Made by a program: the position numbers and the translations under genes
Shown here: piece after piece, positions 3,001 to 60,769 of the stretch
How the letters are laid out: every line of letters begins with the position of its first letter
How positions within the stretch are numbered: position 1 is the first letter of the stretch
Notes under the pieces: model-generated
What the model saw: only the letters and a program-made list of their open reading frames with translations
Database searches by the model: none
What the model was told of the DNA's origin: nothing
Source of the DNA: Terriglobia bacterium
GTDB taxonomy: Bacteria > Acidobacteriota > Terriglobia > Bryobacterales > Bryobacteraceae
DNA: 64,000 bases
Direction of reading: 5' to 3'
NCBI GenBank assembly: GCA_020073265.1
Contig: JAIQFN010000004.1
Span: 62,001 to 126,000 of the forward strand

Positions 3001-3473
3001 TGATTCATGACGCCTCCCACCACCGAATCCATCGTATTCACGGCAACCGCTGCGTCCGAGACCTCCACCGTTTGCGAAGTCGATCCCAGCGTCATAGCGA
3101 AGTTCACGGTAGTATTGGTGCCCACCTGCACCGTGACGGCCTGCAACTGCGAGGTGAATCCCTGTTGCTCGGCGCGAACGTCATACTGGCCCGGCGGCAG
3201 GTTCTCAAAGCCGAAGCTTCCCTCCGGGTTGGTGGTCACCCTGCGGTTGAGATCGGTGCCCTTGTTGGTGGCCGAGACCGCCGCGCCAGGAATCACCGCG
3301 CCGTTCGGATCGGTTACCGATCCGTGGATCGAACCGGTGGTCTGGGCTTGCGCTTGTGGAACGCTGAGGAACGCGATAGCCAGCGCCAGCACAAAGAAAC
3401 CGGCGCTGATTCGTGAAGTGTACGAAAACGCAGACTCGAGAATACGAGTGCGCTGAATGACCCGACGAGTCAT
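1..3473 (-). CDS. TonB-dependent receptor with carboxypeptidase-like regulatory domain (3' end cut by window)
   Basis: My minus-strand translation from the ATG at 3473 stays open to the window edge, about 1157 residues. A run of G (GAGGGGGG) a few bases upstream serves as ribosome binding site. Residues 20-44 form a signal peptide ending in AQAQ. Residues 45-130 match a carboxypeptidase regulatory-like domain (start TTGSIHGSVTDPNG), as in the large Oar/CarboxypepD TonB receptors of Acidobacteriota. A plug-like region with the motif NLPLNGRSF follows, then a long aromatic-rich barrel. The last readable residues (GPRALQVA) resemble the usual end of these receptors, so only a few codons should be missing. 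Family knowledge says such proteins import large ligands across the outer membrane using TonB energy; the substrate cannot be read here. Confidence 0.92.
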   Translation of the reverse strand, partial: MTRRVIQRTRILESAFSYTSRISAGFFVLALAIAFLSVPQAQAQTTGSIHGSVTDPNGAVIPGAAVSATNKGTDLNRRVTTNPEGSFGFENLPPGQYDVRAEQQGFTSQLQAVTVQVGTNTTVNFAMTLGSTSQTVEVSDAAVAVNTMDSVVGGVMNQQRVDNLPLNGRSFLSIAALQPGVTVSYVNGSGPTSPNSFFNVSVAGAPTAQTTISFDGARVNDRITGGTSQNFSSESVQEFQIQTFGFDLASGTVSTGAVNVISRSGSNELHGSGFFFFRDHNMAAFSGLKRPTDPTALNPACLVPTSSACHSLQDPYFVRKQFGGSIGGPIIKDRLFFFGNYERNDQIGATTVAFSDPLLYGWNHVAKQPLAGHLAGVKFDYRINANNQLFVRGNIDSNHAISPSSSGALESTWDASSNFANQAAMGLTTVISPTLVNDFKFSYSYWRNHLSGPTQAECLAIASGISDYCFGAGSTRVTYFGGLTIGNDINVPQDRNPRTYQVTDGLTWIKGAHRFRFGVNLEENVSHGSWSRNLQGSFAAIAPATLQAANPAIYNALPASLHVGATGLTPTFAELNQLPVTGSLTIGFGDAGQPVNYLDSKIWHNLLSRAYAQDAWSIRKGVTLTYGLGWSHETNLVFHNTTRSGFLAPLLGASDLGTVPSQYRDFDPTVGLAWSIGKSQRTVIRAGASLHHASGNVDYLTLQDLVLNAPAGIGLTQSDSTGIANPKAGQPGQPATLNFTTPVQFTAADMLNYLPTIKAQVAAAAIYTGKDLSIRNVDVVKTVQGPQLNDIVLDQSFKTPYTFQVNLGVQREILPRTVLSVDYVMSRAVHFGVYEGEWVDLNRFNRIGSYTLAASGTATVTRNPVLPQCTAAQAKDPRAECSLGGIDLGEPGMLSRYQSLQFQLNRGMSHGLQFSTSYALTRNKGFTGINNYDNLFEGYGTVGGTRTHRVTASAIWQVPAFNGGNAFVRQVVNGWQLSTSMDMASGAPISVRLGSFDVNGDGTRIFNLPGTGNNTFGGDTSIGDIRKLVDAYNATYPAPPNTPLSTIGRANRDTTGSAYPYVVLPDNFQPADSFLTHDLRITRTFALAERFKLLLIGEAFNLFNIANLTGYSGTLQGVVRPTTAAGVATNPTFTFGIPTSRVNPVFGSGGPRALQVA

Positions 3474-3621
3474 GAGACCCCCCTCGCACTGCAGCTCTCT
3501 AATCGCAGCTTGCCTGCGATCAATCGCAGCAGGGGGACCCTTCCGAACCCCGAGACTGCGGTTTCAGAAGTCTATACCTAGTCTCGGTCGGGGTCAAGGG
3601 GGTAACAGGGGGTCCCGGGGC

Positions 3622-4071
3622 CTACCCCGGATACTTCCCCGCAATGTATCCTTCCAACTGCCCGATGGTCTCCTCATGCGACTGGATGGTCCAGTTCACC
3701 ATGTCCCCGATCGAAACCACGCCCACCACTTTGTCGCCGTCCATCACCGGCAGATGCCGGATGCGATGCTCCGTCATCAACCGCATGCATTCCTGCACCG
3801 TGTCCTGGGGCGTCACCACCATCACCAGGCTGGTCATGATCTCGCGCACCTGCGTCCGCTTCGACGAACGGTCCTTCAGAATCACCTTGCGCGCATAATC
3901 CCGCTCGGAAATGATGCCGTCCAGCCGGCCGTTGGACATCACCAGCAGCGCTCCTATGCCCTTGTCCGACATTTTCTGAATGGCCTCGAAGACCATCGCC
4001 GTCGGCTCCACCGACCAAACCTGCCGGCTCTTCCGCTTCAACACCGACTCAATCGTATCCACCGGTTTCAT
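3622..4071 (-). CDS. Paired CBS domain protein
   Basis: This is a 149-aa cytoplasmic protein made almost only of two CBS motifs. CBS1 lies near residues 8-60 (AMVFEAIQKMSDKGIGALLV, then GIISERDYARKV). CBS2 lies near 75-130 (QECMRLMTEHRIRHLPVMD, then GVVSIGDMVNW). Such pairs (Bateman modules) bind adenosyl nucleotides; stand-alone versions of this size are common and their partners are usually unknown. The frame stays open to 4128, but the ATG at 4071 fits the family start (MKPVDTIESVL) and has a G-rich stretch upstream. It is transcribed away from the decayed GNAT copy at 4127-4326. Confidence 0.9.
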   Translation of the reverse strand: MKPVDTIESVLKRKSRQVWSVEPTAMVFEAIQKMSDKGIGALLVMSNGRLDGIISERDYARKVILKDRSSKRTQVREIMTSLVMVVTPQDTVQECMRLMTEHRIRHLPVMDGDKVVGVVSIGDMVNWTIQSHEETIGQLEGYIAGKYPG

Positions 4072-4126
4072 GGGATTGCCCCCCGCCGTAATTCTAGTCC
4101 TAAAGGCCACCCGGCTCAATGGCCTC

Positions 4127-4326
4127 ATAATATGGACGGTCGCCGGGAGGAAATATGTCAGAACCCTCAGCCGCGCGCCCGCCGGCGTTCAGTTCGTCGA
4201 AGCTAAGCCGGAACGCATCAGCGATTTAGGCTGCATCCACGAACAGTCCGTTCAGGACCTCTCGAACCGGCGCGCCTTTCCCCCGGACTTTTCCACATAC
4301 CGTGGCTCGTGTCGTGATTGGCACGA
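4127..4326 (+). pseudogene. Decayed 5' copy of the GNAT gene at 7393
   Basis: These 200 bases match 7365-7566 over promoter, ribosome binding site and the first ~55 codons of the intact acetyltransferase gene. The leader and start (ATAATATGGAC...GGAGGAAA.ATGTCAGAACCC) differ at about 4 of 40 positions. The start ATG is at 4155. One base is missing near 4178, so the frame stops early at a TAG. In the shifted frame the matching peptide continues (VQFVEAKPERISDLG against VQLVQAKPEHVSELG, then FPPDF). Similarity ends near 4326. The -10 hexamer is CATAAT here and TATAAT in the intact copy. No function is expected; it records a duplication or an old recombination. Confidence 0.85.
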
Positions 4327-4466
4327 CCCGACCGCCGTTCACCGGCCCGGCCCGCCCAGCGGAATACAGTTTCAATCCGGTTACGCACATAATTTTTACA
4401 ACTTAGTCCCCAACGATTCTCTGCATTCGACCATCAGAGATATTGAAACTCAAATTTGGAGGCTTA

Positions 4467-5450
4467 GTGAAACTGTCACTCGTGTGCTCGTTGCTTTTAG
4501 CGAGCGCTTATTCCGCATCCGCCCAAACGGCCGCAACCCTGGCCGCCGTGGGCTACACATCTCCCGCGCCCATCCCCGTTGTTCCGGGCGAGGTCGTGAC
4601 GTTGTTTTACCGCAACGTCCCACCGCTTCCCGACGGCAGCTTGCGAACCGCTGCGGCGAACACGGTCCCGTTGCCAACCGTGCTCGCCGGACTTTCCGTC
4701 CACGTCAGCCAGCCGCCCGTGAACTTTCCGATATTCGCCGTCCGTCAGGAGAACGATTGCACCGACGCTCAGGGCAACCCGGCCAATCCTTCCAACCCGG
4801 CCAACCCGGCCTGCCTGCTCACTACGCTCAGAGTGCAGGTGCCATTCAGACTCCAGGTGGTCAAGGAGATGGTGCTCGATGTGGACGGCCAGGCTAGCCG
4901 CAGCTTCGCTTTGTCACAGATCACCGACAACGCCCACGTGCTTACGTCGTGCGACTTGACCTGGGACACCAATTGGTTCAGCTCCTGCAGCCGCGTCGCT
5001 TTCCACGGCGACGGCACACAGATCACCGGCAAGTCCCCGGCGCGGCCCGGCGAAACGATCGTTGTCTATCTCTGGGGCCTCGGCCAGACTTCACCGATCG
5101 TGCCAAGCGGCGAGCCCTCACCGCCGGGCGTCGTGCTGGACCAATTTCCGGGAGTTCCCGGCGTACGGGCAAGGTTCCTGGACGGTCCAACCATTCTCAC
5201 CGATATTCCAGCGTTCTACTCTCCGGAGGATGCGGTTGATCCCGGCTCGCCGATCGATTTTGTCGGCCTGACTCCAGGCCAGATCGGCCTGTACCAGATC
5301 AACGTTGCGATACCGCAGTCGCTCATTCCGACGACATCGTGCGGCGATCTCATTTTTGGAACAACCGACAAGATTCCCGCCAACGCGGTATTGCACATCA
5401 CTACGCTCTACTCCGGCACAGAGGAATTGGGCTTCTGCTTGAAGCCTTGA
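4467..5450 (+). CDS. Secreted TIGR03437-like protein
   Basis: This is a 327-aa exported protein with signal peptide MKLSLVCSLLLASAYSASAQ. The rest is beta-rich. It carries phrases typical of the Solibacter C-terminal domain TIGR03437: PGEVVTLFYRNVPP, PGETIVVYLWGLGQTSP, and GLYQINVAIP near the end. I chose the GTG at 4467 because GGAGG lies just upstream (4458-4462); the frame also allows a TTG at 4443. The domain is common at the end of acidobacterial secreted proteins and its role is unknown. Here it makes up almost the whole protein. A strong hairpin terminator follows. Confidence 0.8.
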   Translation: MKLSLVCSLLLASAYSASAQTAATLAAVGYTSPAPIPVVPGEVVTLFYRNVPPLPDGSLRTAAANTVPLPTVLAGLSVHVSQPPVNFPIFAVRQENDCTDAQGNPANPSNPANPACLLTTLRVQVPFRLQVVKEMVLDVDGQASRSFALSQITDNAHVLTSCDLTWDTNWFSSCSRVAFHGDGTQITGKSPARPGETIVVYLWGLGQTSPIVPSGEPSPPGVVLDQFPGVPGVRARFLDGPTILTDIPAFYSPEDAVDPGSPIDFVGLTPGQIGLYQINVAIPQSLIPTTSCGDLIFGTTDKIPANAVLHITTLYSGTEELGFCLKP

Positions 5451-5468
5451 AAAAGCAACGCCCGTAGC

Positions 5469-5512
5469 GCTCGACGGCGCGCGAACAGACGCGCGTTCGT
5501 CGAGCTTTCTTA
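5469..5512 (+). terminator. Rho-independent-like terminator after the TIGR03437-like gene
   Basis: GCTCGACG (5469-5476) pairs perfectly with CGTCGAGC (5498-5505), with inner CGCGCG arms on both sides of a short loop. TTTCTT follows. It lies 19 bases after the stop at 5450. Confidence 0.75.
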
Positions 5513-5539
5513 GTCACATTTCCACTCCGCCCCTTCGCA

Positions 5540-5571
5540 TTTACCATCCTTTTACAGCATGTGGACAGTCT
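5540..5571 (+). repeat. 32-bp upstream repeat, copy 1
   Basis: This segment reads TTTAC-C-ATCCTTTTACAG then CATGTGGACAGTCT. It matches 8367-8398 with only two substitutions. Each copy lies shortly before a gene for a secreted protein (5600 and 8488). It may be a shared regulatory site or a remnant of a duplicated promoter; no known factor site is recognised. Confidence 0.6.
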
Positions 5572-5599
5572 GCCTGCCGGCCGCCGCATCACACCATAT

Positions 5600-7261
5600 A
5601 TGTTCAATCCAAAGTTGTGGAACCGCGCATTCAGCGCGCACTCGCTGCGGCAGGCAGCCATTATTTCACTGTGTTGCGGAATCCTGCATGCCTATAGTAG
5701 CGGCCCGGATCCCCGTTACACCGGAGCGCCTGGCGATAGCTCTGGAGCCTGCACGTCATGCCACCGCGGCCTGGCCATCAATGCGGGGCAGGGTAGCGTC
5801 ACCATCGTGATGCCCAATGGAAATTCCTATACGCCCGGCGTGACGCAGCACATCATGGTTCAAGTCTCCGATCCTCAACAGCGCCGCTGGGGCTTCCAGA
5901 TGTCCGCACGTCTGAAAAGCGACCAGGTGAACGGCCAGGCCGGCGATTTCAATCCCAGCGATGGTTTCACCCAGGTCATCTGCGATAACTTCACCCCGAA
6001 ACCGTGTTCCGCGAACGCCTTGGTTCAGTTCATCGAACACACCGCCGCCGGAACGCGTTCCGGAGTCGCGGGCGGAGTGACGTTCGAGTTCGATTGGACG
6101 CCTCCGGCGGCGGACTCAGGCAACATCGTCTTCTACGTGGCTGCCAACGCCGCCAATGGCGACGGCAGTCAGAATGGAGACCACATCTACACAACCAGCC
6201 TCGAGATCACGTCCAGCAACCCGGCTGTTCCTCCTGCCCCAACCATTCCTGCGACCAAGTACACGCAGCACAATCTCGTGTCGGACCTGCCCGGCCTGGC
6301 TGACCAGACCGATGCCGCCCTGATCAATCCCTGGGGCATCGCGTTGAACCCGACCGGGCCGTTCTGGATCTCGAATAACCACACCGGCACCAGCACGCTG
6401 TACAACGGATCCGGCCTGCCCTTTCCCATCGGCAGTCCCTTGGTCGTGAACATCCCGGCGGCCGGCGCGGGGAACGCCCCGACACCCACCGGTCAGGTTT
6501 TCAATGGCACGCCGGCTTTCGAAATTTCACCTGGAAACCCAGCCATGTTCATCTTCGCGACGGAGACCGGTACGATCTCGGGCTGGAACCCGCAAGTGGA
6601 CGCGGGCAACGCGAAACTCATGATCGACCGCTCCGGCTCGGGCGCGGTCTACAAGGGCGTCGCCCTGGGATCAAACGACTCCGGACCGCTGCTGTACGCG
6701 GCTAATTTCGCTGCCGCGACCATCGATGTGTTCGACGGCAAATTTCAACCTACCCAAGTCGCCGGAGGTTTTGTCGATCCCAATCTTCCCGCGGGCTTCG
6801 CGCCCTTCAATATTCGAAGAATCGGCCGCAAGCTGTACGTCGCCTACGCCTTGCAGAACGACGCCAAGCACGACGACGTGGCCGGCGCCGGAAACGGCTT
6901 GATCGATGTCTTCGACTCGAATGGAACATTAGTCCAGAGGCTGGTCTCCAACGGCAAGCTCAATTCCCCGTGGGGCATCGCTCTGGCGCCCGATTTCTTC
7001 GGCGACTATAGCAACACCCTCCTGATCGGAAACTTCGGCGACGGCGCCATCAATGCTTTCGATCCGTTCACCGGTGAATACCTGGGCACACTCCAGGACG
7101 GCAACGGAAATCCGATCAGCAATCCCGGGTTGTGGGCGCTCGAGTTCGGCAACGGCCACGATGGCGGCGACGCAAACACGCTGTACTTTACGGCCGGCAT
7201 CGCGAACGGGGCGAATGTGGAAGATCACGGCCTGTTCGGTTCCATTCAAGTAGCGCAGTAG
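5600..7261 (+). CDS. Secreted TIGR03118-family protein with N-terminal choice-of-anchor V-like region
   Basis: This is a 553-aa exported protein. A hydrophobic segment near residues 17-32 is followed by CTSCH (Cys51, Cys54, His55), a CxxCH motif that could bind haem but more likely marks the 'choice-of-anchor V' type region that continues to about residue 200. The C-terminal 340 residues match TIGR03118 (INPWGIALNPTGPFWISNN and later NSPWGIALAPDFFG), a propeller-like family of unknown role. I chose the ATG at 5600; a GTG at 5561 is in frame but lies inside the 32-bp repeat shared with another gene's upstream region, so it is probably not coding. No clear ribosome binding site precedes either start. 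Confidence 0.85.
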   Translation: MFNPKLWNRAFSAHSLRQAAIISLCCGILHAYSSGPDPRYTGAPGDSSGACTSCHRGLAINAGQGSVTIVMPNGNSYTPGVTQHIMVQVSDPQQRRWGFQMSARLKSDQVNGQAGDFNPSDGFTQVICDNFTPKPCSANALVQFIEHTAAGTRSGVAGGVTFEFDWTPPAADSGNIVFYVAANAANGDGSQNGDHIYTTSLEITSSNPAVPPAPTIPATKYTQHNLVSDLPGLADQTDAALINPWGIALNPTGPFWISNNHTGTSTLYNGSGLPFPIGSPLVVNIPAAGAGNAPTPTGQVFNGTPAFEISPGNPAMFIFATETGTISGWNPQVDAGNAKLMIDRSGSGAVYKGVALGSNDSGPLLYAANFAAATIDVFDGKFQPTQVAGGFVDPNLPAGFAPFNIRRIGRKLYVAYALQNDAKHDDVAGAGNGLIDVFDSNGTLVQRLVSNGKLNSPWGIALAPDFFGDYSNTLLIGNFGDGAINAFDPFTGEYLGTLQDGNGNPISNPGLWALEFGNGHDGGDANTLYFTAGIANGANVEDHGLFGSIQVAQ

Positions 7262-7276
7262 GCTTTTTCCTCCTTC

Positions 7277-7314
7277 GGGCTTCGGGTGGGTGCCTCCGAA
7301 GCCCGCTTTTTTTT
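7277..7314 (+). terminator. Rho-independent terminator
   Basis: GGGCTTCGG (7277-7285) pairs perfectly with CCGAAGCCC (7296-7304), and eight T follow (7307-7314). It closes the TIGR03118 gene. Confidence 0.92.
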
Positions 7315-7363
7315 CATCCAACCGCACCACGCCCTTCGCGCAGTTGCAACTCCTGGATGGTCC

Positions 7364-7369
7364 TATAAT
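7364..7369 (+). promoter_or_regulatory. -10 box TATAAT upstream of the GNAT gene
   Basis: A perfect TATAAT lies 23 bases before the ATG at 7393, with GGAGGAAA between them. No good -35 is visible at the right spacing. The decayed copy has CATAAT at the same place (4126-4131). Confidence 0.55.
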
Positions 7370-7392
7370 ATGGACTGTCACCAGGAGGAAAC

Positions 7393-8280
7393 ATGTCAGA
7401 ACCCGCATCGGCGCGCTCCGCCGATGTTCAACTCGTCCAAGCCAAACCCGAACATGTCTCTGAGTTAGGCCGCATCTGTTACGAGGCCTTCAAAGACATC
7501 GCCGACCAGCACGGCTTTCCGCCGGACTTCCCCAGCGCGCGGTTCGCTCGCTTCGTGATCGGCATGCTGGTCGGCCGCCAGGATGTCTACGGAGTGGCTG
7601 CGCTGGTGGACGGTGAACTGGCCGGCTCGAATTACATATCGCTCACCGATCCGGTCTCGGGCATCGGACCCATCTCGGTCGACTGCGCGTTCCAGGGCCG
7701 CGACATCGGCCGCAAACTCATGCAGGCTGTCATCGACCACGCGCGCGCGAACCGCATCGAGCGCGTGCGCCTGCTCCAGGACGCTTTCAACACCGCGTCG
7801 CTGTCGCTGTACGCCTCGCTGGGGTTCGACGTGAAGCACGCCGTCGCGTACTTGCGCCTGGCGCCCGCCTCCGCTGCGGATCATTCGATTCGCCCGGTGG
7901 AAGAGCGCGACCTCGACGTGCTCGACCAGCTTTGCCTGCGCAACTACAAGTCCAGCCGCCGGAACGAACTCGCCGCCGCCGTCCATGCCGGTCTGTCCCC
8001 GCTCGCCCGCCAGCGCGATGGAAGACTCACCGGCTATCTGATTCCCGGAGTTTTCGGCCACGGCGTCGCAGAATCCGAACAGGACGCCGTTGCCATCGCG
8101 TGCCAAGCCGCCCGCCTGCTTCCCCCAGCCCGCGCCTTCTGCTTCTGCCCGCTCGACAACGGCTCCTTGTTCCGCGCATTTCTCAAGGCCGGCTGTCGCA
8201 CGGTCAAAATGATGAACCTCATGGCTATGGGTCCTTACGAACAACCCGCGCCCGTCTGGATGCCATCGGTTCTTTATTGA
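7393..8280 (+). CDS. GNAT family N-acetyltransferase (tandem domains)
   Basis: This 295-aa cytoplasmic protein starts at an ATG with a strong AGGAGGAAA site. The first GNAT domain spans about residues 8-160. Its acetyl-CoA loop region reads SVDCAFQGRDIGRKLMQAV, and a late strand reads ASLSLYASLGF. A second, weaker GNAT-like half starts near residue 165 (HSIRPVEERDLDVLDQL). The substrate cannot be inferred. A truncated, frameshifted copy of its 5' end lies 3.2 kb upstream, so this is the functional paralogue. Confidence 0.9.
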   Translation: MSEPASARSADVQLVQAKPEHVSELGRICYEAFKDIADQHGFPPDFPSARFARFVIGMLVGRQDVYGVAALVDGELAGSNYISLTDPVSGIGPISVDCAFQGRDIGRKLMQAVIDHARANRIERVRLLQDAFNTASLSLYASLGFDVKHAVAYLRLAPASAADHSIRPVEERDLDVLDQLCLRNYKSSRRNELAAAVHAGLSPLARQRDGRLTGYLIPGVFGHGVAESEQDAVAIACQAARLLPPARAFCFCPLDNGSLFRAFLKAGCRTVKMMNLMAMGPYEQPAPVWMPSVLY

Positions 8281-8366
8281 ACCGGCTCTCGGCGCGCCGC
8301 GCATAGTTTGACTCTGCGTCTCGCCCCGCGCTGCCTCATCGTGACCCTGTTCCCCCCGTCAGCCCG

Positions 8367-8398
8367 TTTACGATCCTTTTACAGCATGTGAACAGTCT
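8367..8398 (+). repeat. 32-bp upstream repeat, copy 2
   Basis: This is the second copy of the segment at 5540-5571, with two substitutions (one in TTTAC-G-ATCC, one in GTG-A-ACAG). It lies 90 bases before the start codon at 8488. Confidence 0.6.
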
Positions 8399-8487
8399 TT
8401 GCGCTGTTGGCCGCATCTGTATTCATGTTGCCGGTGCGGTGTGTGAACCAACCCGGTTCCAATTTACGACAAGACGAAAGGATCGAT

Positions 8488-9009
8488 ATGAAATTTGCTT
8501 GCTCAATGATTTTTCTGGGGCTGTTTGCCTCGGCCACGTTTGCCCAGGACGCCCCCATTGTGCGCTGGAAACAAATCGTCGGCGTGATCACCGCACCCGG
8601 CATGGATAACCCGGTGGCAATGGCTACCGATGCGCAAGGCCAAGCCAGCGCCATTCACGCTGGCGCGGGTCCCTGGTCTGCGGTCAGCGGCTACGCTCGC
8701 GTGGACCTCATCAATAGTTCCGTCAGCTTCAATGTCACGGGTCTCGTCATGAACGGAGGCAACAACAGCGGCCTCGTCCCCGCAAACTTCAAAGTGGTTG
8801 GCACGCTGGTGTGCAACAGCGGCACCACGGACGTCGCCACCGCCAAGGACACGCCTCCCGTACTCCTCAGCCCTCAAGGTGACGCCGACTTTACTGGCCA
8901 GTTCACCACCAGCATTCCCCCGTCCTGCGCCAACCCGCTGTTCCTGATTCGGGTTCCGACCGGCCGCTGGATCGCCACCGGCGCCGTGCGTACGCAAAGC
9001 GCGCAATAA
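8488..9009 (+). CDS. Secreted hypothetical protein
   Basis: This is a 173-aa exported protein with signal peptide MKFACSMIFLGLFASATFAQ. The mature part is a beta-rich single domain (SAVSGYARVDLINSSVSFNV, VVGTLVCNSG, then a C-terminal GRWIATGAVR) with two cysteines that could form a disulfide. It resembles a family of small acidobacterial secreted proteins without known function. I chose the ATG at 8488, which has AAAGGA upstream; the frame is open from 8407. Confidence 0.75.
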   Translation: MKFACSMIFLGLFASATFAQDAPIVRWKQIVGVITAPGMDNPVAMATDAQGQASAIHAGAGPWSAVSGYARVDLINSSVSFNVTGLVMNGGNNSGLVPANFKVVGTLVCNSGTTDVATAKDTPPVLLSPQGDADFTGQFTTSIPPSCANPLFLIRVPTGRWIATGAVRTQSAQ

Positions 9010-9033
9010 GCCGGTATATCGTTGTGTTCGAGT

Positions 9034-9063
9034 GGCGGGGCGATGTAGCCTCGCCATTTTTTT
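9034..9063 (+). terminator. Rho-independent terminator
   Basis: GGCGGGGC pairs with GCCTCGCC (one mismatch) around a six-base loop, 9034-9055, and seven T follow (9057-9063). Confidence 0.75.
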
Positions 9064-9088
9064 GCGAACGAGCGCCCGGCCTCGTGCG

Positions 9089-9094
9089 TATAAG
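9089..9094 (+). promoter_or_regulatory. -10-like TATAAG directly upstream of the ADOP permease start
   Basis: TATAAG ends only five bases before the ATG at 9100 and no ribosome binding site is present. If used, transcription would start at or next to the start codon, giving a leaderless mRNA. Confidence 0.4.
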
Positions 9095-9099
9095 ATGAC

Positions 9100-11511
9100 A
9101 TGCTGCAAGATCTGCGCCTGGCCCTGCGCCGCCTCGCCAAATCTCCCGGCTTCACCATCGTCGCCGTGCTGACTCTGGCCCTGGCCATTGGCGCAAATAC
9201 CACCACCTTCAGCGCACTAAACCAGTTTCTCCTCCGCCCGATTCCGGTCGAACGCCCCAAAGACCTGGTCTTTCTGAACAACTCGCGCGGACCATCGCAA
9301 TCCTACCCCACTTACCTCGACCTTCGCGACCGCAACCGGACGCTCGCGGGCCTGATCGCCTACCGCATCGCGCCGGTCTCCTTGAGCCAGGGTGGCAAGA
9401 ACGCGCACATGTGGGGCGACGAGGCCACCGGCAACTACTTCGACGTGCTCGGCGTGCATGCCGTGCTCGGCCGCACCTTCACGCCGGAAGACGACCGCCG
9501 CGGGTCGCCGCATCCGGTCATCGTCTTGAGTTACTCCACCTGGCAGAGCCACTTCGGCGCCGACCAGAACATCGCCGGCAAAACCGCCAAGCTCAACGGC
9601 CTCGAGTACACCATCCTCGGCGTCACGCCCAAGGGTTTTTACGGAACTGAGATCCTGCTGGCGCCCGAATTTTGGGTTCCGCTGGCGATGGTGCCGCAAA
9701 TCGAGCCGGGCAACGACTGGCTGGACCGCCGCGGCACCCACAACATCTGGATCTTGGGACGCCTGAAGCCGGGCTTCAACGCCCGCCAGGCCGCCGAGGA
9801 CTTGAACGCCATCGCCGCCGATCTCGGCCGCCAGCACCGCGAAGACGAGGGCCTGCGCCTTCAGCTCTCTCCTCCCGGTCTGGTCGGCTCCACGCTGCGT
9901 GGCCCGGTCCTCGGATTCGCGTCCGTACTGGTGGCCGTGGCCGGACTGGTTCTGCTGATCGCCTGCGTCAACATCGCCGGCATGCTGCTCGCTCGCGCCA
10001 CCGTCCGCCGTAAAGAGATCTCCATCTGCCTGGCCATTGGCGCGCCGCGCGGAAAAATCGTGCGGCAACTGCTCGCCGAAAGCCTGCTGCTCTCCGTCGC
10101 CGGGGCCGCGGCCGGCGTGCTGCTCGCGATTTGGATCCTCGACCTGATCGGCGCCATCCGCTTCCCCATCGATGTCCCCGCCGCCACCTCGCTGCCTTTC
10201 GACTTCCGCGTGCTTCTGTTTACTCTCTCGGCCTGCGTTCTCACCACGCTTCTGTTCGGACTCGCGCCCGCCATCCATTCGGCGCGCGTCGACCTGCTTC
10301 CCGCTTTGAAAAATCAGCTGTCCGAACGATTCCGGCGCGTGCAAGTGCGCGATCTGCTGGTCGGCGCCCAGGTGATGCTCTCGGTGATCCTCCTGGTGGG
10401 AACCGTGCTGGTGGTCCGAAGTCTCCAGCGCGCCGTCACCATCGATGTCGGGTTCAATCCGCGCCACGCGGTCATGGTGATGTTCGACGTCGCCTTGAAC
10501 GGCTACAGCCAGGAGCGCGGCCGCGCCTTCGAGCGCCGTCTGATGGATCAGCTCACGGCACTTCCAGGCTTGGAGTCCGTCGCGATGAGCAGTTCTCTGC
10601 CATTGGGCCTCGGCGAGTCGAGCACCAACGTGTATGGCGAAGGCAAGCCTGTTCCAAAAGTTTCGGACGCGCCCAGCGCCTACTACTACAATGTGACGCC
10701 CGGCTATTTCCGCACCATGCAAACCCGCCTGATCGCCGGCCGCGACTTCGACCAGCACGATACCGCGGAGTCAACGCGCGTGGCCATCGTAAACGAAGCT
10801 TTCGCTCGCCGCTTGTTCCCCGGCGAGAACCCGCTCGGCAAACGCTTCCGCCAGGGTGTGACGGGATCTCCCTGGATCCAGATCGTCGGCATCGCGCAGG
10901 ACGGAAAATATCAATCGTTGAACGACACCGGCGAGCTGGCGCTCTTCTGGCCGCGCGCGCAGCGATACGATTCCACCATGACGGTGGTCGCCCGCTCCTC
11001 CCTGGCCGGCCAGGATGTGCTGAAGAGTATCGAGCGCAGCATCGGCGAACTCGACCCCACGCTGCCATTCTTCCAGGCCGACACGCTCGAGGACCACATG
11101 AGCCTTCCACTGTTGCCCGCGCGAATCGCGGCCTCCATGCTGGGCGCGTTCGGAGTCCTCGCGATGATGCTGGCCGCCACCGGTGTCTACGGAATGCTGG
11201 CCTACGCCATCTCCCGCCGCTCGCGCGAAATCGGGATTCGCGTCGCCATCGGCGCCACCAAGTCGAACGTGCTGTCGCTGATCCTGCGCCGCGCCATCGT
11301 GATCGTAGCCGCCGCCAGCGTGGTCGGCGCAGGCTTGGCGCTCGGACTCGGCCGTCTCTTCACTCCGATTCTCTACGGCGTCAGCCCGCGCGACCCCTTG
11401 ACTTACGCGCTGGCCCTGGCGTTGATGGCCGCCATCGCCCTCGCAGCCTGCCTGGTCCCCGCCCGCCGCGCCCTGCGCATCGACCCAGCCATCGCCCTGC
11501 GCGACGAGTGA
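9100..11511 (+). CDS. ADOP-family ABC permease (duplicated FtsX/MacB domains, no ATPase)
   Basis: This 803-aa inner membrane protein has two FtsX-MacB units in one chain, the pattern called ADOP (acidobacterial duplicated orphan permease). The N-terminus MLQDLRLALRRLAKSPGFT and first membrane segment are typical. A first periplasmic core (about 45-275) leads to a three-helix block near 280-400 with RRKEISICLAIGAPRGKIVRQ. A second core (about 440-660) ends in a second block with SREIGIRVAIGATKSNVLSLI and the usual tail RRALRIDPAIALRDE. No ATPase gene is next to it, so it would need one supplied from elsewhere. The substrate is unknown; MacB relatives export peptides, antibiotics or lipoproteins. 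Confidence 0.95.
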   Translation: MLQDLRLALRRLAKSPGFTIVAVLTLALAIGANTTTFSALNQFLLRPIPVERPKDLVFLNNSRGPSQSYPTYLDLRDRNRTLAGLIAYRIAPVSLSQGGKNAHMWGDEATGNYFDVLGVHAVLGRTFTPEDDRRGSPHPVIVLSYSTWQSHFGADQNIAGKTAKLNGLEYTILGVTPKGFYGTEILLAPEFWVPLAMVPQIEPGNDWLDRRGTHNIWILGRLKPGFNARQAAEDLNAIAADLGRQHREDEGLRLQLSPPGLVGSTLRGPVLGFASVLVAVAGLVLLIACVNIAGMLLARATVRRKEISICLAIGAPRGKIVRQLLAESLLLSVAGAAAGVLLAIWILDLIGAIRFPIDVPAATSLPFDFRVLLFTLSACVLTTLLFGLAPAIHSARVDLLPALKNQLSERFRRVQVRDLLVGAQVMLSVILLVGTVLVVRSLQRAVTIDVGFNPRHAVMVMFDVALNGYSQERGRAFERRLMDQLTALPGLESVAMSSSLPLGLGESSTNVYGEGKPVPKVSDAPSAYYYNVTPGYFRTMQTRLIAGRDFDQHDTAESTRVAIVNEAFARRLFPGENPLGKRFRQGVTGSPWIQIVGIAQDGKYQSLNDTGELALFWPRAQRYDSTMTVVARSSLAGQDVLKSIERSIGELDPTLPFFQADTLEDHMSLPLLPARIAASMLGAFGVLAMMLAATGVYGMLAYAISRRSREIGIRVAIGATKSNVLSLILRRAIVIVAAASVVGAGLALGLGRLFTPILYGVSPRDPLTYALALALMAAIALAACLVPARRALRIDPAIALRDE

Positions 11512-14285: not shown

Positions 14286-15170
14286 ATGCTCAACTTTCTC
14301 ACTCGCACATTAAGAACATTCAAAGCCGGACTGCTCGGCTTCGGCATCGCTTTACTCGCAGGCGGCGTCTGGGCCGGCTTGTACGTCGCCAATCTCAAAA
14401 CCACGCCGCGCATCCCCTGGGCCGTGATCCCCATGGCTTTCTACTTGTGGGGAATGTGGCGATACCTGGGCGGCAAGGGCTGGCCCCGGAGCACATCCCA
14501 AGCGCGCCGCACCTATCTGCGCGCCCGCCCCGTCACAGCCCGTACGTTCGGCTGGTCATTGCTCGCCGGCGCGTTGGGCGTCGCCGCGCTCGCCGGACTC
14601 TGGATCGTCCTGTTCCAACTGGTGAAGATGCCCGGCAACGTTCTTCCCGATCCGACCCAATACCCGCTGCTCACCATGGCATTTTTCGCCGTCATGGGAT
14701 CGCTGGTCTCACCGCTCGCCGAGGAAGCCGGCCTGCGCGGCTACTGCCAGGTCATGCTGGAACGCGAGTTCCGCGGGCCCATCGCGGTGCTCATCTCATC
14801 GGTCTTCTTTGCGTTCGGCCACGTGAACCACGGACTGCTGTGGCCCAAGCTGTTGGTCTACTTCCTGGCGGGCCTGATGTTCGGCTCCATCGCCTACCTC
14901 AGCAAGTCCATCCTGCCGGGGATTCCAGTGCACATGCTGGGCGACCTCACTTTCTTTACGATGGTCTGGCCCTACGACACCGCGCGGCGGCTGGTGTGGG
15001 AAACCGGCGCGGACACCTGGTTCTGGATTCACGTCGCGCAAGTGGTGATGCTCGGAGCGCTCGCGCTCCTGGCTTACCGGCGCCTGGCGAAGTCACTCGA
15101 TGCGCCCGTCGCGCATGCGTACGACGCGGTGTCCGTAGGCGGCGGCCTCGGGGTTGTGGGTAATCATTAA
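14286..15170 (+). CDS. CPBP family intramembrane metalloprotease
   Basis: This is a 294-aa membrane protein with about eight hydrophobic segments. The CPBP signature is clear: EEAGLRGY (Glu146, Glu147, Arg151), then FAFGHVNHG and a later GIPVHMLGD, supplying the expected Glu and His residues of the Abi/CAAX protease family. The substrate is unknown; relatives process prenylated or other membrane proteins. The last 26 residues are encoded antisense to the end of the convergent ABC ATPase gene (78-base overlap). They look unlike membrane protein, which suggests that an original stop was lost. Confidence 0.88.
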   Translation: MLNFLTRTLRTFKAGLLGFGIALLAGGVWAGLYVANLKTTPRIPWAVIPMAFYLWGMWRYLGGKGWPRSTSQARRTYLRARPVTARTFGWSLLAGALGVAALAGLWIVLFQLVKMPGNVLPDPTQYPLLTMAFFAVMGSLVSPLAEEAGLRGYCQVMLEREFRGPIAVLISSVFFAFGHVNHGLLWPKLLVYFLAGLMFGSIAYLSKSILPGIPVHMLGDLTFFTMVWPYDTARRLVWETGADTWFWIHVAQVVMLGALALLAYRRLAKSLDAPVAHAYDAVSVGGGLGVVGNH

Positions 15171-15767
15171 GATGGTCTGGCCCAGACGGTCGTTGAGCCC
15201 CCGCAGGATGCCGAGCACCGCGTTGGAGTTCTCGGTGTCCAGGTTCCCGGTGGGTTCGTCCGCCAGCAGGATGGCCGGATGGTTCACGATGGCTCGCGCG
15301 ATGGCGACACGCTGTTGCTCACCTCCCGACAGCGCGCGCGGCTTGTGGTCCAGCCGGCCAGCGATCCCCAGCAGCTTCAGCACTTCTTCGAACTGCGGAT
15401 CCAGCGGGCCGTTCTTGTGCGCGATGTGGCGCGCGATCTCGATGTTATCGCGCGCGGTCAGCGTCGGCAGCAGGTTGTACTTCTGGAAGACAAACCCGAC
15501 GCTGGTCTTGCGCAGTTCGGTGCGCTGCGCGTCGGTCAGCCCCAGCAGGTCAAGGCCGGCGATGTGTACGCTGCCGGAGGTGGGCGGCGTCAGTCCGCCG
15601 ATGATGTGGAACAGGGTCGACTTGCCGGAGCCGGACGGGCCGATGATAGACAGGAACTCGCCGCGCGCCACGTCCAGGTCCACACCGCGCAGCGCCTGCA
15701 CTTCCACCTCGCCGACGCGATACACCTTGCGGAGATCGCGGATGGAGATGATCGGCGCGTCACTCAT
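15093..15767 (-). CDS. MacB/LolD-type ABC transporter ATP-binding protein
   Basis: This 224-aa cytoplasmic ATPase has all motifs: Walker A GPSGSGKST (about 43-51), Q-loop VFQKYN, signature LSGGEQQRVAIARA, Walker B ILLADEP and switch histidine ITHN. It belongs to the MacB/LolD/FtsE class. Its start overlaps the end of the permease gene by eight bases, so the two form one transporter. It is the last gene of the cobalamin riboswitch operon. Confidence 0.93.
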   Translation of the reverse strand: MSDAPIISIRDLRKVYRVGEVEVQALRGVDLDVARGEFLSIIGPSGSGKSTLFHIIGGLTPPTSGSVHIAGLDLLGLTDAQRTELRKTSVGFVFQKYNLLPTLTARDNIEIARHIAHKNGPLDPQFEEVLKLLGIAGRLDHKPRALSGGEQQRVAIARAIVNHPAILLADEPTGNLDTENSNAVLGILRGLNDRLGQTILMITHNPEAAAYGHRVVRMRDGRIE

Positions 15768-20308: not shown

Positions 20309-20370
20309 TGCTACGAATTTTGAAAGAGCGCTTAACTGACAGGAGAGAGTATAGCAGATCATTCTCAGCG

Positions 20371-20415
20371 TTCACATGAGTGTGAACGCGGCACGCAGGA
20401 GTGCGTGCGCCACGG
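20371..20415. repeat. Tandem-hairpin repeat, family 2, copy 1
   Basis: Two adjacent hairpins: TTCACA/TGTGAA (20371-20386, loop TGAG) and GCACGCA/TGCGTGC (20391-20408, loop GGAG), joined by CGCG and followed by GCCACGG. The same design is at 60722-60769. Both copies lie directly after the stop codon of a minus-strand gene. Confidence 0.7.
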
Positions 20416-26509: not shown

Positions 26510-26924
26510 GCGCCAAGTCCGCCGCCAACGGCTTCTCTCTTTTATTAAGTCCTGCTGTTTTGTGCTCAAGTCCGTTCCTGGAAAACAGATTCGCCTGCCG
26601 TTGGTGGATTCTTAGCAAACGGGAACGCGTCAAGTTGACGAGAACCATCCTACGCGTTGAGGGGTTGGCTGGTGCGAGCGGATTGTTTCCGGACGGCAAC
26701 CCGGAAGTTAGTCTTGCGGGATGGACGGTGCCGGCAACTTGCGGTTAGCGCGATCCGTCAGTGTTCCAGAAAATCTTCCTGTCCCTGCGGCTTGATGCGC
26801 TCGGCCTTGACGGAGCCCGACAGCGATGCCGGCGAAACTTTCTTCTCCAGCAGGTACCCGCGCTCCAAATTCGTCCAGAGGGAACCGATAGAATAAGTTT
26901 GTAGAGCAGATGGAGGAAGGGCGA
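26510..26924. other. Gene-poor stretch with repeat copy A
   Basis: I see no convincing gene here. It holds the left direct repeat (26694-26781). A short minus-strand frame ends in QEDFLEH at 26758, the same tail as the kinase gene that ends inside the right repeat. It may be the 3' scrap of a lost gene. Confidence 0.45.
26694..26781. repeat. 89-bp direct repeat, copy A (left)
   Basis: The 88 bases match 30058-30146 with about six substitutions and one indel (about 92% identity). The pair flanks the 26925-29939 gene. Confidence 0.85.
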
Positions 26925-29900
26925 ATGGCAAGCGCAGGAACTTGGTCAGCACACGCGGTTTCCCGCTTGCGTGGGGCAGGAATCATCCTAATGGCCATTG
27001 TCCTTTGGTACGTCCCGGCCGGGAGCATCTTCGCGGATCCAACGGAAACGGCACGGGAAGCGAAACCAGCGAAGGCATCCCTGCTGGGCGTGCCCCTAAA
27101 CTTCGAAGCCAATCAGGGCCAAGCGGACAGCCAGGTAAAGTTTCTATCCCGCGGCGACGGCTACTCGTTGTTTCTCACATCGTACGAAGCTGTCTTCACG
27201 CTGCGGTCTCCGGATGGGGCCAAGGCTCCGCCGTCGGTTTTCCGTATGGAACTGCGGGGAGCCAATCGTAGCGCCCAGGTTAGCGGCGCAGATAAGCTGG
27301 CAGGTGTAGCCAACTACTATGTTGGCAACGACCCGGCGAAGTGGCGCAGCGGAATCGCGACCTACGGCAAAGTGAAGTACCAGGGCCTCTACCCAGGCAT
27401 CGATGCGGTGTTTTACGGCAATCAGCGTCAATTGGAGTACGATTTCGTTGTCGCGCCCGGCGCCGACCCCAAGCAAATTTCGCTCGGTTTGACCGGAGCC
27501 AAGCCGAGTGTAGACGCCGACGGCAACGTCGTCCTGAAACTGGCGGATGGCGATCTGGCTTTGAAGAAGCCGGTGGCTTTTCAGAACTTCGCCGGTGAAA
27601 AGAAAATCGTCGAGGCCGGCTATACCATCGCCGGAAACCAAGTTCGTTTCCACCTGGGCAAATACGACCCCAACCAAACGCTGGTGATCGATCCGGTGTT
27701 CACGTACCTCACATACTTGGGCGGTTCCAGTGTGGACTACATTGGTGGCGTCACGGGCGTGGCCCAAACCAGTAGTCCCAACCATGCTCTGGCGATCGAT
27801 TCTGCCGGCGACGTCTACGTTACCGGACAAACGCTTTCAGATGACTTTCCCGCGGCCAATGCCTATCAATCCAGCAGAAAGGTGACCGGAGGCGCTTACG
27901 CGGCCTTTGTGAGTGCCCTGAACCCATCCGGCACGGCGCTGCTATACAGCACGTATCTGGGAGGATCATTTATTAGCGCCGGACAGGGCCCCGGTACGGA
28001 CGCAGCTACCTCGATCGCCTGGGATAGCTTCGATAACGCCGTGTATGTCGTAGGTGCCGCCCAAAACTCCGATTTTCCGGTCACGGCCGGCGCGTTCCAG
28101 CCCCAAATTGCGTTTGGCTCTTACAGCGCTTTTGTAGCCAAGTTCAACAGCACCGGCCAACTCACGAAGTCGACATTTTTAGGGCCTCACGTAACCGAAG
28201 GACTCGGGATAACATCGGACTCGCTCGGACGAGCCTACGTCGTGGGCGTTACCTCCTACGGCAGTTGCACAGCGGCATCCCATACGATTTGCTTCCCCAC
28301 AACATCGGGAGCGGTTATTCCAGGCGGCAATTTCGCGCAGAATGGCAACGGTTTTGTGTCCGTTTTCGACGCGAACCTATCGACGCTTTTGTATTCCACG
28401 CTCCTCGGCGATCCGAATGGCTCGGAGCATAGCACTTCGGAGGCCTTCGACGTGACGGTGGACCCGAATGGAAATTTCTACGTCGTTGGCGTCACGGGTT
28501 CGCCTAGCCTCCCTACCACTCGGGGCGCTTTCCAGCCAGCCCTGGGGACGAGCAATGCTACTCCACTCGTCGGATTTGCCGCTAAGTTCGGACCGGTCAG
28601 CGCCAGTGGGGCCACGCTCACTTATCTCACGTATCTGGAAGCAACAGGCATAAGTTTCGGCGAATTCCCGAGCAGTGTGGCTGCCGATAGCCAGGGCAAC
28701 GCGTATATCGGCGGCTACTCTAACTCGCTGACGTTCCCCGTAACGACGGGTGCCTACAACACTCCCTGCCCGCTAAACGGCGCTCGACTTTGCCCTGCCG
28801 CATTTGCGACCAAATTGAATCCTGCCGGAACGGGCCTGGTGTGGTCTGCGCTGGTGGAACCTGCTGACTTTTTCTCCACCATTAAACTCGATGCGCAAGG
28901 GTATGTATTTGTGAGCGGCCACGCCGGAGCGTCTTCGTTTGTGCCAGTGAATCCGGTGCAGACCGTTCTCGACAATAGCGGAGGGTTCGTGGCGAAACTC
29001 GACCCGACGGGAAGCACGTTGCTGTTTGCTTCGCTGATTCAAGGAGGTTTTGCCCTGAAGGGCTTGGCGGTGGACGCGCTGGCGAACGTTTATGTAACCA
29101 GCTACACCCCTGACACTACACTGCCGACGACACCCGGCGCGTTTCAGACTGCCTTAAAGAATCCCGGCACCGGCAACAGCTATGACGGCTTCATCGGCAA
29201 ATTCAGCTTGGCGCCTTCGATCACGCCCAACGGCATCGTCCCCAATGACAGTTCCGCTCCCGCGATCGAGGCCGGCGAATGGGTTTCGATCTATGGCGTC
29301 AATCTCGCCGGCGCCGCCGCGACCTGGACCGGCAACTTCCCCACATCGCTCGGCGGCGCCAGCGTCACGATTGACGGGAAGCAGGCTTATTTGTGGTATG
29401 TCAGTGCGACACAGATCAACCTACAGGTTCCTGACGACGCAGCAACGGGACCGGTCACCGTCGTGGTCACTACGCCGAACGGAACGGCATCCTCCACCGT
29501 TACACTCGCCCAATTTGCTCCTTCGTTCAACTTGCTGGATGCGAAACACGTTGCGGGCATCATCCTGAGGTCAAATGGATCGGGTGCTTACGGCGGAGGC
29601 TCCTATGACATCATCGGCCCCACGGGGAGCTCGCTTGGCTATGCGACGGTTGCGGCGAAAGCGGGCGACAGCGTTGAGCTTTTCGGCGTCGGATTCGGGC
29701 CAACCAGTCCGCACGTCGCCCCAGGCGCGATATTCTCTGGATCGGCGTCCACTACTAACGCCGTGAGCCTCCGCATCAACAACGTGAGCGTCAATCCGTC
29801 CTTCGCCGGATTGTCCGCGGCCGGCCTCTATCAGATCAATTTCACCGTCCCGGCAGGCCTTGGCACGGGCGACGTCACGCTGGTGGCCGCCGTGGGCGGC

Positions 29901-29939
29901 GCGTCGACACAGCCGAGCGTCGTCATCTCGCTGCAGTAG
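26925..29939 (+). CDS. Secreted SBBP-repeat protein with TIGR03437 C-terminus
   Basis: This is a 1004-aa exported protein. The first ~40 residues include a hydrophobic signal segment (GIILMAIVLWYVPAG). Residues 50-260 match the DUF7948-type N-terminal domain (NFEANQGQADSQVKFLSRG; YPGIDAVFYGN; LEYDFVVAPGADP). Many SBBP beta-propeller repeats follow (AIDSAGDVYVTGQTLSDDFP; STLLYSTLLGD). The last ~240 residues are TIGR03437 (IEAGEWVSIYGVNL; QINLQVPD; LYQINFTVPAGLG). I chose the second ATG, 26925, because GGAGG lies eight bases before it; the frame opens at 26910. Such proteins are thought to be cell-surface or secreted binding proteins. It sits exactly between two direct repeats. Confidence 0.9.
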   Translation: MASAGTWSAHAVSRLRGAGIILMAIVLWYVPAGSIFADPTETAREAKPAKASLLGVPLNFEANQGQADSQVKFLSRGDGYSLFLTSYEAVFTLRSPDGAKAPPSVFRMELRGANRSAQVSGADKLAGVANYYVGNDPAKWRSGIATYGKVKYQGLYPGIDAVFYGNQRQLEYDFVVAPGADPKQISLGLTGAKPSVDADGNVVLKLADGDLALKKPVAFQNFAGEKKIVEAGYTIAGNQVRFHLGKYDPNQTLVIDPVFTYLTYLGGSSVDYIGGVTGVAQTSSPNHALAIDSAGDVYVTGQTLSDDFPAANAYQSSRKVTGGAYAAFVSALNPSGTALLYSTYLGGSFISAGQGPGTDAATSIAWDSFDNAVYVVGAAQNSDFPVTAGAFQPQIAFGSYSAFVAKFNSTGQLTKSTFLGPHVTEGLGITSDSLGRAYVVGVTSYGSCTAASHTICFPTTSGAVIPGGNFAQNGNGFVSVFDANLSTLLYSTLLGDPNGSEHSTSEAFDVTVDPNGNFYVVGVTGSPSLPTTRGAFQPALGTSNATPLVGFAAKFGPVSASGATLTYLTYLEATGISFGEFPSSVAADSQGNAYIGGYSNSLTFPVTTGAYNTPCPLNGARLCPAAFATKLNPAGTGLVWSALVEPADFFSTIKLDAQGYVFVSGHAGASSFVPVNPVQTVLDNSGGFVAKLDPTGSTLLFASLIQGGFALKGLAVDALANVYVTSYTPDTTLPTTPGAFQTALKNPGTGNSYDGFIGKFSLAPSITPNGIVPNDSSAPAIEAGEWVSIYGVNLAGAAATWTGNFPTSLGGASVTIDGKQAYLWYVSATQINLQVPDDAATGPVTVVVTTPNGTASSTVTLAQFAPSFNLLDAKHVAGIILRSNGSGAYGGGSYDIIGPTGSSLGYATVAAKAGDSVELFGVGFGPTSPHVAPGAIFSGSASTTNAVSLRINNVSVNPSFAGLSAAGLYQINFTVPAGLGTGDVTLVAAVGGASTQPSVVISLQ

Positions 29940-30057: not shown

Positions 30058-30122
30058 CGGCAACCCAAAAGTTAGTTTTGCAGGATGGACGGTGCTGGCA
30101 ACTTGCGGTTAGCGCGGATGCG

Positions 30123-30146
<24 letters not shown>
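30058..30146. repeat. 89-bp direct repeat, copy B (right)
   Basis: This is the partner of 26694-26781. It includes the last codons (QEDFLEH, stop at 30123) of the minus-strand kinase gene. Confidence 0.85.
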
Positions 30147-60721: not shown

Positions 60722-60769
60722 GCGTCGACACGAGTGTCGGCGCGGCACGCATGAGTGCGTGCGCCACGG
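60722..60769. repeat. Tandem-hairpin repeat, family 2, copy 2
   Basis: Two hairpins: CGACAC/GTGTCG (60726-60739, two-base loop) and GCACGCA/TGCGTGC (60745-60762, loop TGAG), followed by GCCACGG. The second hairpin is identical in its arms to 20391-20408. It sits directly after the stop of the minus-strand SDR gene. Confidence 0.7.

Follow-up and report, generated by a model that had tools for sequence, protein, structure and literature searches.

A decayed partial copy of a GNAT gene upstream of the intact acetyltransferase gene, probably left by an old local duplication

Within the 64,000-nucleotide stretch of DNA analysed here (the window), positions 4119-4325 are very probably a pseudogene fragment, comprising the leader and the first ~55 codons of what was once a second GNAT acetyltransferase gene, one that arose by an old local direct duplication. 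We assign a probability of roughly 0.88 to this reading. The relic would have no function at present, and the enzymatic function would rest on the intact copy (Table 1), with respect to which the relic lies ~3.2 kilobases 5' and in the same (+) orientation.

Table 1. Features of the GNAT locus and its surroundings, in window coordinates
Feature	Position	Strand	Evidence or remark
CBS-domain gene	3622 to probably 4071	-	
Leader of eroded GNAT copy: -10-like CATAAT (4126-4131), ribosome-binding site GGAGGAAA	4119-4154	+	common with 7357-7392
Eroded 5' part of GNAT gene, about 55 codons	4155-4325	+	72% DNA identity to intact gene start
Gene with TIGR03437 'Solibacter uncharacterized C-terminal domain', GTG start	4467-5450	+	NCBIfam E 4.5e-19
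32-base repeat, copy 1	5540-5571	+	93.75% to 8367-8398, E 3.7e-6 in window
Gene with choice-of-anchor V and TIGR03118, signal-peptide-like start by eye	5600-7261	+	NCBIfam TIGR03118 E 3.2e-112, choice_anch_V E 3.3e-29
Terminator-like hairpin, 11 pairs and run of T	7276-7305		6 such sites in region vs 5.1 in shuffles
Leader of intact GNAT gene: TATAAT (7364-7369), ribosome-binding site GGAGGAAA	7357-7392	+	sequence, repeat scan
Intact GNAT acetyltransferase gene, 295 aa	7393-8280	+	Pfam Acetyltransf_1 E 8.5e-13, residues 60-145
32-base repeat, copy 2: 86 bases past GNAT stop codon, 89 bases before ATG at 8488	8367-8398	+	
Gene without Pfam or NCBIfam match, signal-peptide-like start by eye	8488-9009		
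ADOP permease	9100-11511		

The first-pass annotation of this DNA had described a partial GNAT copy of about 200 bases, covering the promoter and some 55 initial codons, 5' of the intact gene. This extent was borne out when the window was compared with itself allowing gaps: 4119-4323 aligned with 7357-7564 at 71.6% identity over 208 columns with two gap openings (E 1.9e-22). The similarity is real: the optimal local score of the segment against the intact copy was 518, well above chance, as 500 first-order resamplings of the relic averaged 221 and never exceeded 294. When the whole 6.4-Mb genome was searched at the DNA level with the upstream segment, the intact copy was matched at E 7.0e-23, and no third place of this kind was found at E<=0.001. 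What the two copies have in common is a stretch of ~36 bases directly 5' of the start codon, plus some 55 codons. Upstream flanks (4060-4118 vs 7290-7356) and downstream flanks (4326-4466 vs 7567-7720) resembled each other at chance level, the global scores being attained by 218 and 104 of 500 resamplings, respectively. Two genes were correctly said to lie between the copies, namely the open reading frames 4467-5450 and 5600-7261, both of which have family matches. On the other side of the relic, the CBS-domain gene (ORF 3622-4128) probably begins at 4071 and not at 4128, judging from the N-termini of two relatives (L041 and L042).

The upstream copy is decayed, as had been proposed. The one-base gap is located where it was claimed, at about 4178/4179, and shifts the reading frame, so that the ATG at 4155 opens only 24 codons followed by TAG. 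Read in the shifted frame, the relic still resembles the GNAT N-terminus, matching the intact protein at 43% across residues 7-50 (E 8.5e-6). It carries GCIHEQSV in place of GRICYEAF, a motif that is nearly invariant elsewhere: in a comparison with 13 relatives, 12 of them readable (the piece of L048 that was used contained a stop in each of the three frames), GRI was kept in 11 and the terminal AF in all 12. Differences from the intact gene affect all three codon positions (14/53, 9/56 and 16/56 for positions 1, 2 and 3). As position 2 differs least, it is possible that the relic was under constraint for a time before it decayed. The similarity to GNAT stops at about 4325, and nothing above chance level was found of the GNAT body beyond this point, where the TIGR03437-domain gene occupies the position expected for the rest of the first copy. 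A GNAT body hidden within the gene at 4467 was also considered and rejected, since 23 of 100 resamplings were as similar. The segment thus combines significant similarity to an intact gene with a disrupted and truncated frame and a loss of constraint at conserved residues, which are the marks of a pseudogene, and 4155-4229 should be kept out of gene annotation.

The relic was also said to keep its promoter, and this was true in part. The ribosome-binding site and a -10-like hexamer are present, with CATAAT instead of TATAAT as had been read from the sequence. A scan for sigma-70-type -35/-10 pairs (16-18 nt spacing), however, found none at either GNAT copy, and divergence was not significantly lower in the leader than in the codons, with 4 of 28 leader positions (4127-4154) differing versus 39 of 165 coding positions (p = 0.33). 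The promoter-like sites in 3500-9120 numbered two (mean of 1.7 in shuffles), both on the - strand (4119-4091 and 3597-3569), and neither reads towards a GNAT copy.

These observations bear on another explanation, according to which the leader and the 24-codon frame would be held by selection as a regulatory leader or a small peptide for the gene at 4467. The ribosome-binding site is indeed identical to that of the intact copy, and it lies within the best-kept part of the relic, which is also the best ungapped block of the repeat scan (60 nt at 83%, 4119-4178 / 7357-7416). The leader is not significantly less diverged than the codons, though, and the gene at 4467 is preceded by a GGAGG of its own, some 130 bases past the relic, in a spacer that is richer in AT (GC 0.50 vs 0.625 for the window). 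Moreover, an Rfam search of 3400-9200 returned a single match below E 1, at 7061-7134 and far under its gathering score, and the relic DNA found one 22-base match in 120 other genomes of the family (in G011; up to six candidates per genome scored). We therefore consider this explanation very improbable. The same low standing is given to a more far-reaching form of it, in which the relic leader would be a live transcription and translation start and the 24-codon frame would regulate the gene that took the place of the GNAT body and that looks secreted. If it were true, a promoter would have been captured from a dead gene and, together with the 32-base pair described below, a small local regulon would have formed from duplication debris.

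The leader is also informative about the origin of the two copies. No resampling out of 500 attained the leader similarity between them, and the leader pattern, with up to two mismatches allowed, occurred genome-wide only at both copies (reversed control, one). When the leader of the intact copy was compared with the regions upstream of 18 relatives' genes, similarity was at or near chance level; the best relative was L069, where 3 of 300 resamplings attained the score, the next-best score being attained by 13 or more. The presence of AGGAGGAAAC upstream in L069 may explain its score. Because a non-coding leader is common to the copies and not clearly present 5' of the relatives' genes, a local duplication of DNA is indicated, in agreement with one of the scenarios put forward initially, duplication of the locus.

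Alternatively, two GNAT genes could have been gained separately, one of which decayed, without any local duplication. The gene is patchily distributed: of 200 genomes sampled from the family, 36 contain a relative (own genome counted, E<=1e-20). Of the 10 GNAT loci found in the genome collection, the nearest, from an Acidobacteria gp3 MAG record, is 64% identical, and further relatives occur in Chloroflexi, Phycisphaerae and Polaromonas records. Short gapped alignments put the relic at 65-82% identity to 13 relatives (over 87-120 aligned bases), and its 73% identity to the neighbour (over 124) falls inside that range. Nevertheless, the relic's alignment score with the neighbour (259) exceeded that with each of the 13 relatives (102-168), and the non-coding leader is clearly common only with the neighbour copy. 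Separate gains hence appear highly unlikely, and local duplication remains the preferred origin of the pair.

Related genomes had been suggested as a source of an intact two-copy locus or of an empty site, and neither was seen among the loci looked at. The two genes may have been brought in between the copies, as was also suggested. The CBS gene at 3622 had DNA matches in two of the four other genomes of the genus, and no GNAT match stood next to it on either of these two contigs. Over the first 16 kb of both contigs, open frames at least 120 codons long matched proteins of the window and its left flank at the CBS gene only; L042 was an exception, with two overlapping frames, roughly 6-8 kb from that gene, that matched window positions 15099-15737. 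Conversely, GNAT loci of relatives were fetched (tblastn, E<=1e-5, loci of the own genome left out), many of them reaching only about 1.5 kb on each side, and none of those fetched contained the CBS, TIGR03118 or 8488 genes of the window. Other genes of the neighbourhood had matches at such loci: L032 contained a TIGR03437-domain match, a partial one, some 6 kb away from GNAT, the ADOP permease was matched in L032 and L033, and the gene at 12877 in L044 and L071. Among 20 other relatives, the TIGR03437 gene was matched in five (E<=1e-20) and the gene at 8488 in none at E<=0.001.

How far the duplicated unit extended can be considered in the light of a 32-base repeat, absent from the first-pass annotation and found both in the repeat scan and in the self-comparison of the window. 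Each GNAT copy is followed on its 3' side by one repeat, order and orientation being the same for both, and the first repeat is situated between the 4467 and 5600 genes. The unit may accordingly have spanned GNAT into its 3' spacer. The body of the first copy would then have been lost, with the TIGR03437-domain gene now in its place and the TIGR03118 gene between the units. No further similarity was detected in the flanks of the repeat pair (global scores attained by 91 of 500 resamplings on the left and 227 on the right), nor between the region before 5540 and the GNAT 3' end (344 of 500). Since its flanks are unrelated and it is far better kept (94%) than the relic (72%), the repeat may be an independent element.

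Such an element could be a control sequence shared by genes 5600 and 8488 instead of an edge of the unit, which would be compatible with our reading of the relic. Both repeats stand just upstream of these genes (28 and 89 bases, respectively), their flanks are unrelated, and the 22-base core, allowing up to three mismatches, occurs in the genome only at 5540 and 8367 (reversed control, none). On the other hand, their order and orientation are as expected if a GNAT unit had been duplicated together with its 3' spacer, the scan detected no sigma-70-type pair at the repeats, and in 236 other genomes of the family the core had one match, with three mismatches, compared with seven for the reversed control. 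A shared control element thus has about an even chance, and because the flanks are unrelated, we hold it and the unit edge about equal. By eye, the genes behind both repeats have signal-peptide-like starts.

Some further repeats were recorded. The motif ATRTGRACNGTC has seven genomic occurrences (reversed control, five), four of which fall within a 4.3-kb stretch, at 4130, 5559, 7368 and 8386, all on the + strand and each upstream of a reading frame. A common origin of the leader pair and the 32-base pair through this motif was considered and is treated as chance, as the pattern was picked after being seen. Four comparisons of the leader with the 32-base element gave chance-level similarity in three cases (112, 271 and 296 of 1000 resamplings) and a weak one in the fourth (18 of 1000). 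Elsewhere in the window, an 89-base direct repeat, 92% identical (26694-26781 and 30058-30146), flanks a long open frame at 26892-29936 and may mark both ends of a unit that was inserted or duplicated. Two copies of a 48-base repeat, 85% identical, are present at 20368-20415 and 60722-60769, and in each of them two hairpin-like inverted repeats can be seen by eye.

The relic is of an ordinary kind and leaves general views unchanged, adding one further trace of small-scale duplication and decay in an apparently acidobacterial genome. Work on Candidatus Solibacter usitatus Ellin6076 describes widespread small-scale duplications in that genome, mostly not recent ones, and paralogs with low identity (PMC3174227). 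Like those, the GNAT pair described here has diverged; what are paralogs in that account (PMC3174227) correspond here to a truncated and frame-shifted relic. As for the GNAT acetyltransferases (PF00583), the intact gene at 7393-8280 matches the family and passes its curated cut-off (49 bits vs 20.7), and the relic resembles its N-terminal part. Because the relic covers residues up to about 55-58 only and so ends before the stretch of the domain model (60-145), it can hardly have acetyltransferase activity.
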